64,000 bases of DNA from Haematomicrobium sanguinis DSM 21259 (GTDB lineage: Bacteria; Actinomycetota; Actinomycetes; Actinomycetales; Micrococcaceae): the NCBI RefSeq assembly GCF_000688395.1, contig NZ_JIAG01000015.1:1-64000 (forward strand). Direction: 5' to 3'. The position numbers and the translations under genes are program-made. Below, piece after piece: positions 8,273-14,595 of the stretch. Positions within the stretch are counted from its first letter, which is position 1. Each line of letters starts with the position of its first letter. The notes beneath the pieces were generated by a model. It was not told where the DNA came from. It saw only the letters and a program-made list of their open reading frames with translations, and searched no databases.

Positions 8273-10783
8273 CTATTCCGGGACAATATTGACGAGTTTG
8301 GGTTCGCGCACAATGACCTTGCGGATCCCACGTCCGTCCAGGAATCGCTTAACGCCATCCGAGGCTAGCGCGAGCGCCTCCAACTCGGACGCACTAATCT
8401 CAGGGGACACCTCCAGGCGCTCACGCACCTTGCCCTGAATCTGCACCACCGCGGTAATCGTGTCCTCGACCAGCAGGCTCTCATCCACCTCGGGCCACGG
8501 CGCACGGGCAATCGAGGGCTCATGCCCCAACAGCTCCCACATATCCTCGGCGGTGTACGGCGCAAAGAGGCTCAACAGAATCGCAATCGCCTCGGCCGCT
8601 TCCTGCGCGGCGGGGTCTGATGCGTTGCCGTCATCAATAAACTTGCGGGCGACATTCACCAGTTCCATGGCGCGGGCAATCACCACATTGAACTTGCCGG
8701 ACTCGACCAACTGCGCCGCATCATGCACGGCCTTATGCGTGGCCGAACGCATCGCACGGTTACCCTCGCCGGCATCCGCCTCGGTAGCCTCGACGTCACG
8801 CGCCACACGCCAGGCGCGCGCCAAGAACTTGCCCATGGCCGCGGGCGAGACGTCCGCCCAGTCCACATCATCGGCAGGCGGCGAGGCAAAAACCATCGCC
8901 ATGCGCACAGAATCGACGCCAAAACGGTCCAATTCTTCGCTCAAATCCACGCCGTTGCCGAGCGACTTGCTCATGGCCTTCCCCTGGTTCAGCACCTGGC
9001 CCTGGTTCAGCAACGCCTTGAACGGCTCGGTGAAGTTCACCATGCCCATATCGAAAAGCACCTTGGTGAAGAAGCGCGCATACAGCAAGTGCAAGATCGC
9101 GTGCTCCACGCCGCCCACATACTGATCCACCGGCAGCCACTTATTCACTTGGTCCTCGGCGAAGGGCTCCTTGTCATCGCGCGGGGACGCGTACCGCAGG
9201 AAGTACCAACTGGAGTCCACAAACGTGTCCATCGTGTCGGTATCCCGTCGGGCTGGGCCACCGCAGATCGGGCAGGTGACATTGACCCAGTCGGTTGCCG
9301 ACGCCAACGGCGACTCGCCCTTGGGCGCCAACTGCTCGCCGCGCAAATTTGTCGGCAACTCCACCGGCAACTGGTTATCCGGCACCGGAACTTCTCCGTC
9401 GATTTCGCAGTGAATGATCGGGATCGGCGCCCCCCAGAACCGCTGCCGGGAGAGCAGCCAGTCGCGCAGGCGGTAATTGACGGTCGCCTCCCCGGTTCCG
9501 CGGGATTCCACCAACTCGGTGGCGGCGGCAATGGCATCCTGCTTATTCAGTCCATCCAAAGGACCCGAATTCACCATGACGCCGTCACCAGTGGTCGCCA
9601 CACCGGACACGGCAGGGTCTTCCTCTCCGGTATCCACCACCATGCGAATCGGCAGGTCAAAGGCGCGCGCAAAGTCCAGGTCGCGCTGATCGTGCGCGGG
9701 AACGGACATGATGGCGCCGGTTCCGTAATCGGCCAACACGTAATCCGAGGCCCAGACCGGGATCTCCTCGCCGGATACCGGGTTGATCGCAACCCGCCCC
9801 AACGGCACGCCGGTCTTTTCCCGGTCCGAGGACTGCCGGTCAATATCGGAGAGCGTCTTAATGGACTCGCGGTACTCCTCCAGCGCCGCCCGCTGCGAAG
9901 GCGCAACCAAATCCATGGCAACCTCCGAGTCTGCGGCCACCACCATAAATGTGGCGCCAAACAACGTGTCCGGGCGAGTTGTAAACACGGTGACGGACGC
10001 TTCTGGGCGAGCATCGCCGTCGTTCATCTCACCCACGGCCGGGATCTGGAAGGTCACGTGCGCGCCAACGCTGCGCCCAATCCAGTTCCGCTGCATCAAG
10101 AGCACCCGCTCGGGCCACTGACCCTCCAACTGGTCCATGTCATCAAGCAGGCGGTCGGCGTAATCGGTGATCTTGAAGTACCACTGATTCAGGTTCTTTT
10201 TGGTGACCATGGTGCCGCAGCGCTCGCACGCGCCATTGACCACTTGCTCGTTGGCGAGCACGGTCTGATCCTTGGGGCACCAGTTGACCGGCGAGTTCTT
10301 GCGGTAGGCCAAACCGCGCTCATAAAAACGCTTGAACAGCCACTGTGTCCAACGGTAATACTCGGGGTCCGAAGTTTGCAGGCGGCGGGACCAATCCAGC
10401 GAGAGCGCGTAGCGGCGGAAACTCTTCGCCTGAGTCTCAATGTTCGCGTACGTCCATTCACTGGGGTGCGCGTTGCGCTTGATCGCGGCGTTCTCGGCGG
10501 GCAGCCCAAAAGAATCCCACCCCACCGGGTGCAACACGTTCTTACCGCGGTGCATCCAGTACCGCGCCACGACGTCCCCCATCGCGTAGGCCTCGGCGTG
10601 GCCCATGTGCAGGTCGCCAGATGGGTAGGGGAACATGTCGACCACGGTGAAGCGCTCGCGCTCGGTGTCCTCGTTGTCCGCCACGTACACGTTGAGCGCG
10701 TCCCAGACCGCGGGCCATTTCGCTTCCATGCGCGCGGTGTCATATTCGCGGACGTCGGTCTCCGTGTTCAACTCTGTGCTCAT
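8273..10783 (-). CDS. leuS: Leucyl-tRNA synthetase
   Basis: Charges tRNA-Leu with leucine. At about 836 residues the class I signatures are intact: HIGH-type [19 protein letters not shown] near residue 55, zinc-binding cysteines around 165-185 and 500-520, the CP1 editing domain (about 225-420, [16 protein letters not shown]), and KMSKS-type [10 protein letters not shown] near 610. The ATG at 10783 is preferred over the GTG three bases upstream, because AAAGGG lies at good spacing. Within the editing-domain region an apparent insertion [11 protein letters not shown] matches a motif found in five other genes here (see repeats). Expression is probably controlled by the leucine attenuator at 10861-10968. 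Confidence 0.97.
10011..10029 (-). repeat. Dispersed in-frame motif, copy in leuS
   Basis: GCATCGCCGTCGTTCATCT (plus strand); read on the coding strand it gives EMNDGDA. This 19-bp stretch is identical to part of the pyrR copy at 45727-45753. Confidence 0.75.
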
Positions 10784-10860
10784 CACTGCCCTTTATAAAC
10801 CGTGGGTGTTCCATCTTCTTCATGCCCCGTGCGCGGTGCCTGGACTCGTGCGCCCGGCAA

Positions 10861-10899
10861 GCCCTTTTGGGCAAACAAAAACCCCTTGCGCACAAGGGG
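10861..10899 (-). terminator. Intrinsic terminator of the leuS attenuator
   Basis: On the minus strand CCCCTTG, loop TGCG, CAAGGGG (10899-10882) is followed by five U residues (10881-10877): a 7-bp perfect stem with a U-tract. A further small hairpin, GCCC-AAAA-GGGC (10872-10861), follows. It lies between the leader peptide stop and the leuS start, in the right place to end transcription when leucine is plentiful. A competing stem can form between GCCGCG just after the leader stop codon and CGCGGC just before the terminator. Confidence 0.8.
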
Positions 10900-10928
10900 C
10901 GGCCGCGTCACTCGATAGAGCGCCGCGG

Positions 10929-10955
10929 CTAGCTAAGAAGAAGCAAGAAATGCAT
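10929..10955 (-). CDS. Leucine attenuator leader peptide upstream of leuS
   Basis: An eight-codon reading frame, MHFLLLLS, with four leucine codons in a row (TTG CTT CTT CTT) and a TAG stop, lies about 150 bases upstream of leuS. An intrinsic terminator sits between them. The known logic of ribosome-mediated attenuation is that scarce charged Leu-tRNA stalls the ribosome on the Leu run, changes the fold of the downstream RNA and prevents termination. Here that would raise the synthetase level. The ATG has no Shine-Dalgarno sequence; TATAGT lies seven bases before it, suggesting that it starts a leaderless transcript. Confidence 0.75.
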   Translation of the reverse strand: MHFLLLLS

Positions 10956-10962
10956 GGGAATA

Positions 10963-10968
10963 ACTATA
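10963..10968 (-). promoter_or_regulatory. Putative -10 box for the leader peptide and leuS
   Basis: TATAGT on the minus strand, seven bases upstream of the leader peptide ATG at 10955. No good -35 hexamer is visible 16-18 bp further upstream, as is common in actinobacterial promoters. Confidence 0.5.
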
Positions 10969-11130: not shown

Positions 11131-14100
11131 ATGACTACGTTTGATGCAATGGAGCCACGCCCACAAGATTTGGGCGAGCAAACCGTAGATTTGGTCCGTA
11201 AATGGCTAGGGATTGCGCCCTATTCCGCTGCGGACCGCCCCAAAGTCAAGGCGTCCAAGTCCGCCGAACTTCTTGCCGAAGTTCTTAAAGATCCCGTGGG
11301 TCTGGACTTCACGCTCGGGTTTGTGGACCGGGTCATTCGGCCCGAAGACACCCGGGTGGCCGCGCGCGAACTCGCGCTACTGGCGAAGAAGGCACCGACC
11401 TTCCTGCCCTGGTACATGAAACTCGGTGTGAAGCTCGGCGGAGTGCTAGCACCTATCCTTCCTGGAATTGTGGTGCCGATCGCCCGCGCCGTGCTGCGCC
11501 AAATGGTGGCGCACCTGATTGTGGATGCGCGCCCCAAACAGCTGGGCAAATCGATCGCGAAGCTGCGCGATGAGTCCAGCCGCCTGAATATCAACCTGCT
11601 GGGCGAAGCCGTTCTTGGCAACCAGGAAGCGGATGCCCGCCTGCGCGGCACCCGTGAACTCCTGGAACGCCCCGACGTGGATTACGTATCCATCAAGGTG
11701 TCCTCGGTAGTGTCCAAGCTGAACATGTGGGCCTTCGACGAGACGGTGGACAAGGTCGCCGAGCGCCTCACCCCGCTCTATGAGTACGCCGCTCGCGAGG
11801 TCGCCGCCGGCCGCCCCAAGTTCATCAACCTGGACATGGAGGAATACCACGACCTCGACCTCACCGTCGCGGTCTTCAAGAAGATCCTGTCCAACCCCGC
11901 CCTGTCTGGGCTAGAAGCCGGAATCGTGTTGCAGGCCTACCTGCCCGACGCGCTTGGTGCACTCCAGGATTTGACCGCCTTCGCGACCGAACGCCAAGCT
12001 GCCGGCGGCGCCGGAATCAAGGTGCGCGTGGTCAAGGGCGCCAACCTTGCCATGGAAAACGTCGACGCGAAACTGCACGGCTGGGAGCTGGCACCGGTTG
12101 CCTCCAAGCAGGACGCCGACACCAACTACAAGCGGGTCTTGGACTGGGCGCTGCGCCCCGACCATGCCGCGGCGGTGCGCATTGGCGTGGCCGGGCACAA
12201 CCTCTTCGATATTGCATTCGCGCACATTTTGGCCGAGGCCCGCGGGGTCTCGGACCGGGTCGAGTTCGAGATGTTGCTTGGCATGGCCGAGGAACAGGCG
12301 CAGGAAATCCGCCGCGATGTGGGAGCCGTGCTGCTCTACACCCCGGTGGTGCGCCCCCAGCAGTTCGACGTCGCCATCAGCTACCTGATTCGCCGCCTGG
12401 AGGAGAACGCCAGCCAGGAAAACTTCATGTCCGCGGTCTTCGAGCTGGAGAAAAACCCGACGCTCTTTGATCGGGAGCGCGACCGGTTCTTGAAGTCTTT
12501 GGCGGCCCTTGACCTGAGCGTGCCTGGGCCGAACCGCCATCAGGAACCCGTGCGCATGGAGCGTGACGCCTCCGGCCGCTTCGCCAACCAGGAGGATTCC
12601 GATCCGTCCTTGCCCGGCGTCCGCGCCTGGGGTGCCGAGATTCTCGGCCGTGTCCCGGGCTCGCAATTGGGCGTGCAGTTGGTTGCCGATTCTCGCCTGG
12701 ATTCAAAGAACGACGTCGATGCCGCCATCCAGCGCGCCCTTGCCGCCCAGCCGGGCTGGGCAGAATTGGGCGGGGCGGGACGCGCGTCGGTGCTTCGCGC
12801 GGCTGCCGAGAAATTGGCCGCTCGACGCGCCGATTTGGTGGAGGTGTCCGCGTCGGAAACCGGCAAGACGATTGCCGAGTCCGATCCGGAAATCTCCGAA
12901 GCCATCGACTTTGCCAACTACTACGCGGACCTCGCCGAGGAACTGGATGCGGTTGAAGGCGCACGCTTTGTGCCGTCCAAGCTGACGGTAGCCACTCCCC
13001 CGTGGAACTTCCCGGTTGCCATTGCCGCCGGTTCCATGTTGGCGCCGCTGGCCGCTGGCAGCTCTGTGATTGTGAAGCCAGCCCCCCAGGCTAAGCGCTC
13101 GGGTGCCGTGGTGGTTGAGGCGCTCTGGGAAGCCGGAATACCGCGCGATGTGTTGCAGTTTGTGGACGTGGAAGAAGGTCCGATCGGCCAGCACCTGATC
13201 GCCAATGAGGCGGTTGACTTGGTGATTCTCACCGGTGCGTATGACACGGCCAAACTTTTCAAGTCGTGGCGAGCCGATTTGCCGTTGTTGGCAGAAACGA
13301 GCGGCAAGAACGCGATTGTGGTGACCCCGAGCACCGACCTGGACCTCGCCGCAGCCGATGTGGTGAAGTCCGCCTTTGGGCACGCCGGACAGAAGTGCTC
13401 GGCCGCGTCCTTAGCGATTCTGGTGGGTTCGGCCGCGTCCTCCGATCGCTTCCGCACCCAACTGGTGGATGCCGCGTCCTCTCTGGTGGTTGCCTACCCC
13501 GAGGATGCGACGAGCGAGATGGGGCCGATCATTGAACCGGCCGCCGGCAAGCTCAAGGACGCGTTGACGACCCTTGGCGAGGGCGAATCCTGGCTCGTGG
13601 AACCGCGTCAGCTGGATGACACCGGCCGCCTGTGGTCACCTGGCGTGCGCACTGGCGTCAAGCCGGGCAGCTACTTCCATCTGACCGAGTTCTTCGGTCC
13701 GGTTCTTGGCATCATGGAAGCGAAAGACCTGGATGAAGCGATTTCCTTCCAGAATGCGACGGATTACGGTCTGACCGCCGGAATCCACACAATGGACTCG
13801 AGCGAGCTGGCGACCTGGTTGGAGAAGGTTCAGGCCGGAAACCTGTACGTGAACCGCGGGATCACCGGCGCGATTGTGCGCCGTCAGCCCTTTGGCGGCT
13901 GGAAGCGCTCAGCCATTGGCCCGGGCGCCAAGGCCGGTGGCCCTAACTATCTTGTGCACCTGGGTTCCTGGGAACGCGAAGAAATTGCCACCGATCCGGT
14001 GGACGTGGCGTTGTCTGCCCCGGTTCGCGGGTTGGTTGATGCGGCGGCAGCTGACCTGTCCGAGTCCGAAGTGGCGTTCTTGGAGCGTTCGGCCGCTAAC

Positions 14101-14595
14101 GATCAGCGCCAGTGGTCAACTCGCTTTGGCATCAACGCGGACGTGTCCGGGCTGGGCGTGGAGCGCAACGAGTTTCGGTATGTGCCGGTTCCGGTGACCC
14201 TGCGGCTCAACGCTGCCGGGTCGGTGTCGGACCTGGTCCGAATCGTGGCCGCCGCAATCCGCTCCGGCGCCCACTTTTCGGTGAGCAGCGCGCATGAGGT
14301 GGGCAACGCCGTCGTACGTGTGATCGAGGAGGCCGGCGGTTCGGTGACTATCGAGACCGACGATGCCTTTGCCACCCGTGTTGCGGCGGAGAAGCCGTCC
14401 CGGGTGCGGGTCATCGGCGGCGGGTACACGGAGCTGTCCGAAGCGGTCAACGGGTCGCCGGATGTGGCGATTTATGCGGGCCCGGTGACCGAGGCGGGAC
14501 GGATTGAGATGCTGCCGTTCTTCCACGAGCAGGCGATTTCCATCACCGCGCACCGGTTCGGAAACCCGGATAGCATTTCGGATAAGGTGCTCTAG
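11131..14595 (+). CDS. putA: Bifunctional proline dehydrogenase / L-glutamate gamma-semialdehyde dehydrogenase
   Basis: Oxidizes proline to glutamate in two steps, using FAD and then NAD+. The 1154 residues hold an N-terminal PRODH domain (about 70-455: VRVVKGANLAMENV, FEMLLGMAEEQ, YLIRRLEENASQENF) and an ALDH domain (about 520-985). The ALDH domain contains PPWNFPVAIAAG, the general base Glu in LAETSGKNA (near 721) and the catalytic Cys in GHAGQKCSA (near 756). A C-terminal ALDH-like tail of about 165 residues follows. No ribbon-helix-helix DNA-binding domain is present, so this PutA should not act as its own repressor. It is a single gene, divergent from leuS, ending at a strong shared terminator. 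Confidence 0.96.
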   Translation: MTTFDAMEPRPQDLGEQTVDLVRKWLGIAPYSAADRPKVKASKSAELLAEVLKDPVGLDFTLGFVDRVIRPEDTRVAARELALLAKKAPTFLPWYMKLGVKLGGVLAPILPGIVVPIARAVLRQMVAHLIVDARPKQLGKSIAKLRDESSRLNINLLGEAVLGNQEADARLRGTRELLERPDVDYVSIKVSSVVSKLNMWAFDETVDKVAERLTPLYEYAAREVAAGRPKFINLDMEEYHDLDLTVAVFKKILSNPALSGLEAGIVLQAYLPDALGALQDLTAFATERQAAGGAGIKVRVVKGANLAMENVDAKLHGWELAPVASKQDADTNYKRVLDWALRPDHAAAVRIGVAGHNLFDIAFAHILAEARGVSDRVEFEMLLGMAEEQAQEIRRDVGAVLLYTPVVRPQQFDVAISYLIRRLEENASQENFMSAVFELEKNPTLFDRERDRFLKSLAALDLSVPGPNRHQEPVRMERDASGRFANQEDSDPSLPGVRAWGAEILGRVPGSQLGVQLVADSRLDSKNDVDAAIQRALAAQPGWAELGGAGRASVLRAAAEKLAARRADLVEVSASETGKTIAESDPEISEAIDFANYYADLAEELDAVEGARFVPSKLTVATPPWNFPVAIAAGSMLAPLAAGSSVIVKPAPQAKRSGAVVVEALWEAGIPRDVLQFVDVEEGPIGQHLIANEAVDLVILTGAYDTAKLFKSWRADLPLLAETSGKNAIVVTPSTDLDLAAADVVKSAFGHAGQKCSAASLAILVGSAASSDRFRTQLVDAASSLVVAYPEDATSEMGPIIEPAAGKLKDALTTLGEGESWLVEPRQLDDTGRLWSPGVRTGVKPGSYFHLTEFFGPVLGIMEAKDLDEAISFQNATDYGLTAGIHTMDSSELATWLEKVQAGNLYVNRGITGAIVRRQPFGGWKRSAIGPGAKAGGPNYLVHLGSWEREEIATDPVDVALSAPVRGLVDAAAADLSESEVAFLERSAANDQRQWSTRFGINADVSGLGVERNEFRYVPVPVTLRLNAAGSVSDLVRIVAAAIRSGAHFSVSSAHEVGNAVVRVIEEAGGSVTIETDDAFATRVAAEKPSRVRVIGGGYTELSEAVNGSPDVAIYAGPVTEAGRIEMLPFFHEQAISITAHRFGNPDSISDKVL

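Follow-up and report, generated by a model that had tools for sequence, protein, structure and literature searches.

The window, that is, the whole stretch of 64,000 nucleotides that was analysed, comes from a genome that is placed in or near the Micrococcaceae; the level of LeuS identity to Sinomonas, Specibacter and Arthrobacter sequences is about 72%. The leucyl-tRNA synthetase encoded in it scores 943.7 bits against its NCBIfam model (cut-off 548.4). The start codon of leuS is most likely the ATG at 10783 rather than the GTG at 10786, since relatives have GTGAGCACAGAG where the window has ATGAGCACAGAG (e.g., L147). The upstream neighbour of leuS occupies 11131–14595 on the opposite (+) strand; judged by eye from its translation, this divergent gene resembles a bifunctional proline dehydrogenase/aldehyde dehydrogenase (PutA-like). 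Between the two genes lie a promoter-like box, a short leader ORF, a first hairpin and an intrinsic terminator (Table 1).

Table 1. Features of the leuS upstream region in the window.
Feature	Position	Strand	Remark
-10 box TATAGT	10963..10968	-	spaced 7 nt from the leader ATG
Leader ORF ATGCATTTCTTGCTTCTTCTTAGCTAG, MHFLLLLS-stop	10929..10955	-	without Shine-Dalgarno sequence
First hairpin, stem GCCGCG/CGCGGC	10902..10929	-	folding and covariation
Intrinsic terminator hairpin GCCCCTTG-TGCG-CAAGGGGT	10881..10900	-	1 nt past the first hairpin
Terminator U-tract TTTTTGTTTG	10872..10881	-	
leuS, leucyl-tRNA synthetase, regulated gene	8273..10783	-	NCBIfam TIGR00396

The preliminary description of this DNA had listed a peptide with four Leu codons in a row and a stop codon, a TATAGT box seven bases ahead of its ATG, a competing GCCGCG/CGCGGC stem, and a U-tract terminator upstream of leuS on the leuS strand. 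All of these elements are present (10955–10929 for the leader, 10968–10963 for the box, 10900–10872 for the terminator with its U-tract), but competition by base pairing is not shown, as the stem has no overlap with the terminator. The leader codons are ATG CAT TTC TTG CTT CTT CTT AGC TAG, with TTG CTT CTT CTT as the consecutive Leu codons and the last CTT (10937–10935) as the sensing codon; the first hairpin begins 5 nt past it. The arms of this hairpin are GCCGCG (10929–10924) and CGCGGC (10907–10902), an inner stem lies within CGCTCTATCGAGTG, and the folding energy including the inner pairs is -18.6 kcal/mol. None of 200 dinucleotide shuffles of the leader region folds as well as the native sequence (z -3.58). 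A promoter-like box followed by a short ORF with at least three Leu codons running occurs once in the window and in none of 60 shuffled 64-kb windows.

The terminator hairpin has an energy of -12.5 kcal/mol and is directly followed by TTTTGTTTG; the same terminator was recovered by an independent terminator scan. Placed after the leader and ahead of leuS, and with the next gene upstream read from the opposite strand, it can serve leuS alone. It can also be noted that 3′ of the terminator, Micrococcaceae retain TTTTGTGTGTC and not a pure U-tract (positions 10872–10881 of the window and relatives), with which the freed strand of the first hairpin could pair.

Upstream regions of leuS were drawn from 80 public contigs and about 90 genomes of the family. 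A combined filter for promoter, leader and terminator was passed by 121 of 168 regions, giving 113 distinct leaders, which are not independent events, since the relatives share ancestry. The leader is eight codons long in 87 of the 113, and in 85 of these 87 the last Leu codon stands two codons ahead of the stop. Examples are MRAILLLS, MHTFLLLS, MQRFLLLG and MNVALLLT; several reduced leaders, such as MHFQRDLV and MYSQRDLA, keep a single Leu at position 7. The stop codon is TAG in 91 distinct leaders. The last Leu codon is CTT in 87, CTA in 19, CTC in 6 and CTG in 1. Among the Leu codons of 33 long ORFs in the window, CTG and CTC are the most frequent (64% together), and CTT accounts for 10%. 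Leu attenuators are expected to choose rare or selectively uncharged codons (PMC1183508). The alignment of relatives proposed as a check thus gave conserved Leu runs and a conserved terminator over many genera, together with a covarying stem. These searches found no such leader in Kocuria, Micrococcus, Nesterenkonia, Yaniella and other Micrococcaceae genera; the switch is therefore not essential for leuS.

Several deviating leaders were observed. In Pseudarthrobacter sp. GA104 (L050:2243-2351), the leader stop is lost (TAG to CAG), so that the leader has 17 codons, while the rest is retained; the Nocardioides-type leaders likewise extend beyond the stop position of the window leader. The first hairpin has been lost in three genomes that belong to one genus (L092, L098, L212); their leader is MAYFLG, with a single Leu codon. 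In these three, the terminator itself begins at the stop codon, 4–5 nt past that Leu codon.

The preliminary description had also suggested that the ribosome loads on a leaderless RNA. No Shine-Dalgarno sequence stands directly 5′ of the leader ATG in the window. To avoid the use of the promoter as a criterion, 68 distinct leaders were chosen by Leu run, length and terminator alone; in 67 of them, TAnnnT is located 6–7 nt before the start codon, against a background of 0.8% at random positions of the same regions. This conserved spacing argues for a leaderless start, as does the homologue of Streptomyces lividans, leuL2, whose leader MRAVRLLLSEPR was found in 2021 to be leaderless by RNA-seq and to be followed by a Rho-independent terminator (PMC8079986). 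Transcription is predicted to start at or beside 10955, and the leader transcript of the window is probably leaderless.

For the distances between the parts, the 101 leaders with both hairpins in their fold were used. In 88 of them, the first hairpin begins 4–5 nt past the last Leu codon, and the gap between this hairpin and the terminator is 0–1 nt in 92 and 0–3 nt overall. No base is common to the two hairpins in any of these leaders. The offset of 4–5 nt and the gap of 0–1 nt occur jointly in 81% of the leaders versus 6% of the shuffles. The gap by itself is found in 91% versus 56%; since it is so common in shuffles, the abutting of the hairpins carries weight chiefly when taken with the fixed offset and the covariation. 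First hairpins are 15 to 62 nt long. The ilvB leader of the same genome, MSNLLVVLISWRVA, which is an independent sequence, has an offset of 5 from its last Ile codon, ATT, and a gap of 0. This leader (L214, G000:C7:82687-84384, minus strand) has TAAAGG shortly before its ATG. The leuA leader of the same genome (L213, G000:C9:133213-134913, minus strand) starts with GTG followed by HYGSLLLLSSRGEEPSGK, which contains a Leu run; it has no obvious intrinsic terminator and resembles the published LEU element.

In a structural alignment of 47 diverse leaders, standard pairs occupy 92.5% of the cells across both hairpins, and the terminator pairs are retained in all 47. Cells with double changes number 87, versus 28 after shuffling and 4–23 in slid controls, and by this measure the first hairpin covaries strongly. 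In a more distant set, drawn from the matches of the covariance model described below, double-change cells number 69 versus 18, with the reservation that this alignment was fitted to the model and leans towards it.

A covariance model (R1) was built from the alignment of 47 leaders, those of the window and its relatives; its matches use no gene information. In the source genome it gives one significant site (E 5e-18), the window being among the training sequences, and two further matches have E >1. Across the phylum, 31 of 296 genomes are matched. Among the 26 loci examined in detail, 14 (L184–L197) carry leuS by tblastn, and others precede leuA (L198, L199, L200, L204) or ilvB (L201, L205, L209), as confirmed by NCBIfam. 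The leaders found by the model at L198–L209, from other actinomycete classes, end in LLLT, LVLIT or LVLM. In one Streptomyces-like genus, model R1 matches eight genomes (E 8e-9 to 3e-12), where the leaders are MRAVRLLLSEPR or MRAVRLLLSGPR. Two low matches in the phylum, L210 and L211, are without a leader and look like chance. An Rfam search at the gathering score returned no family for the element (an unrelated chance match has E 9.2) and no T-box riboswitch match at the leader; a search of a plasmid collection gave no match. The covariance model is a search model absent from Rfam 15.

As in known attenuators, a leader ORF with Leu codons precedes leuS, and an intrinsic terminator lies between the leader and the gene. 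Attenuation of leuS through these codons, in response to leucine, is very probable; here the original proposal is strengthened by the Leu runs, the terminator and the covarying stem of the relatives. The explanation as a whole is probable as well: leuS would be governed by ribosome-mediated transcription attenuation in which charged tRNA-Leu is sensed. Transcription would begin at the leader ATG, and since the RNA would start there, a 70S ribosome could load on the 5′ end of the leaderless RNA. At leucine shortage, the ribosome would stall at the Leu codons, particularly at the rare last CTT.

The edge of the ribosome lies at +11 nt from the P site, and this figure was used to step a ribosome along the window RNA. 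The first hairpin remained whole with any Leu codon, including codon 7, in the A site, whereas all six basal pairs were removed with the stop codon in the A site. According to this ribosome-stepped fold, the first hairpin would be folded in starvation and open when leucine suffices. If the sign of regulation is that expected for a synthetase gene, the first hairpin must then act as an antiterminator. We tentatively suggest that it does so sterically, a step to which we would give somewhat less than an even chance. With its front edge, the stalled ribosome would just touch the base of the first hairpin; this hairpin would remain folded and abuts the terminator, so that zero free RNA would be left from the stalled ribosome to the terminator base. 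The terminator would be prevented from full closure beside the polymerase, and leuS would be transcribed. With ample leucine, the ribosome would reach the stop codon and melt the first hairpin; slack would be freed and the terminator would form. Of the ways to read the fixed distances, this one is the simplest: the ribosome, hairpin and terminator would lie end to end without slack. No direct precedent for the steric step was found.

The first hairpin could instead exclude the terminator through base pairing and so be an antiterminator of the kind known from trp and C. glutamicum ilvBNC. The gene and its function fit such a classical attenuator; the antiterminator and terminator of C. glutamicum ilvBNC are adjacent, overlapping at GCC (PMC11857589), and the leuS attenuators of Streptomyces were termed classical by Seliverstov et al. 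(2005) (PMC1262725). This explanation is nevertheless rather unlikely: the hairpins of the 101 folded leaders share no base at their spacing of 0–3 nt, and at the anchored positions, alternative pairing with the terminator arms is limited to runs of 3–4 pairs. In the anchored alignments, no other conserved base-paired antiterminator was found. Two pairings were considered and rejected. Pairing of AGCC with GGCU, the stop codon with the terminator 3′ arm, comprises four pairs and is available in 96% of the sequences, but it is short, its invariant bases also serve both hairpins, and it is absent where the hairpin base differs, e.g., in L153. Pairing of the Leu codons with the terminator GAGGGG would give 4–5 pairs with a long loop, lying under the ribosome. 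Since there are no shared bases and no other conserved antiterminator, the element is not filed as a textbook attenuator of the trp type; it lies outside the overlapping-stem form and yet should work like an attenuator.

Alternatively, the first hairpin may mainly serve to pause the polymerase and bring it into step with the ribosome, with the dwell of the ribosome near the terminator deciding the outcome. Its position puts a hairpin-stabilised pause within the terminator region, and the three genomes without the first hairpin retain the leader and terminator. A pause alone leaves the failure of the terminator on starvation unexplained, and it does not require a strict distance to the last Leu codon, so we consider this unlikely, if a little less so than exclusion by base pairing. 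Another pairing emerges from the ribosome-stepped fold of the window RNA: once the first hairpin is open, its 3′ strand (GCGG) would anneal to the U-tract (UUGU), which lengthens the terminator. The conservation of TTTTGTGTGTC past the terminator in many Micrococcaceae would suit such a strand switch; the pairing is weak and mostly G-U, the G of the U-tract is missing in Streptomyces and Nocardioides relatives, and this explanation is improbable. It is highly improbable that the leader ORF arose by chance or plays no regulatory part and that the terminator merely lowers leuS transcription constitutively: many genera conserve the places of the Leu codon and the stop, the promoter spacing and the hairpin, and several leaders with a single Leu still keep it at position 7.

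The probable leucine attenuator of leuS resembles the enterobacterial trp and leu attenuators in its proposed logic, where a ribosome stalled at codons for the regulated amino acid determines whether transcription terminates. In the enterobacterial systems, the leader is preceded by a Shine-Dalgarno sequence and the stems 1:2, 2:3 and 3:4 overlap. With C. glutamicum ilvBNC, the element shares a leader peptide, the adjacency of an antiterminator hairpin (putative here) to the terminator hairpin, and, as predicted here, control by branched-chain amino acids (PMC11857589, PMC10272879); there, however, three bases belong to both hairpins and a third hairpin is present, and neither is the case in the window. 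The leader of the actinobacterial LEU element of leuA also contains a Leu run (PMC1262725), but this element is described as having a pseudoknot and as lacking an obvious intrinsic terminator, whereas the leuS element has a canonical one.

The closest system is the leuS attenuator of Streptomyces, with the same gene, a short Leu-rich leader, a start that here is probably leaderless too, and a hairpin followed by an intrinsic terminator. As with leuL2, the window element stands before leuS with Leu codons, a hairpin and a terminator, and model R1 finds the sequence and structure of the two homologous. The Streptomyces leader has 12 codons (MRAVRLLLSEPR) and the 5′ arm of the hairpin lies inside the ORF, whereas the window leader has eight codons and its stop is at the hairpin base. 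The preliminary description was right that attenuation of a synthetase by its own amino acid codons is established elsewhere; for actinobacterial leuS itself, Leu attenuators were predicted in 2005 in two Streptomyces species (Seliverstov et al., 2005, PMC1262725), and the kind of element found in the window is therefore already known.

The new aspect may be the fixed-distance design rule. For the leucine attenuator of leuS, described until now in Streptomyces, the range now takes in much of the Micrococcaceae and further actinomycete families, although an earlier listing for Arthrobacter is possible. The window leader is unusually short, with eight codons and a predicted leaderless start. It is conceivable, at rather less than even odds, that the leuS, leuA and ilvB attenuators of actinobacteria share a design without a base-paired antiterminator. 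If the steric reading is true, a hairpin of any length would tie the stalled ribosome to the terminator base, and the short distances alone (4–5 nt and 0–1 nt) would matter; the hairpin would be a remover of slack, and the stalled ribosome itself the antiterminator. The fixed distances turn the description of a leader, a hairpin and a terminator into a testable mechanism of a stalled ribosome against an abutting terminator.
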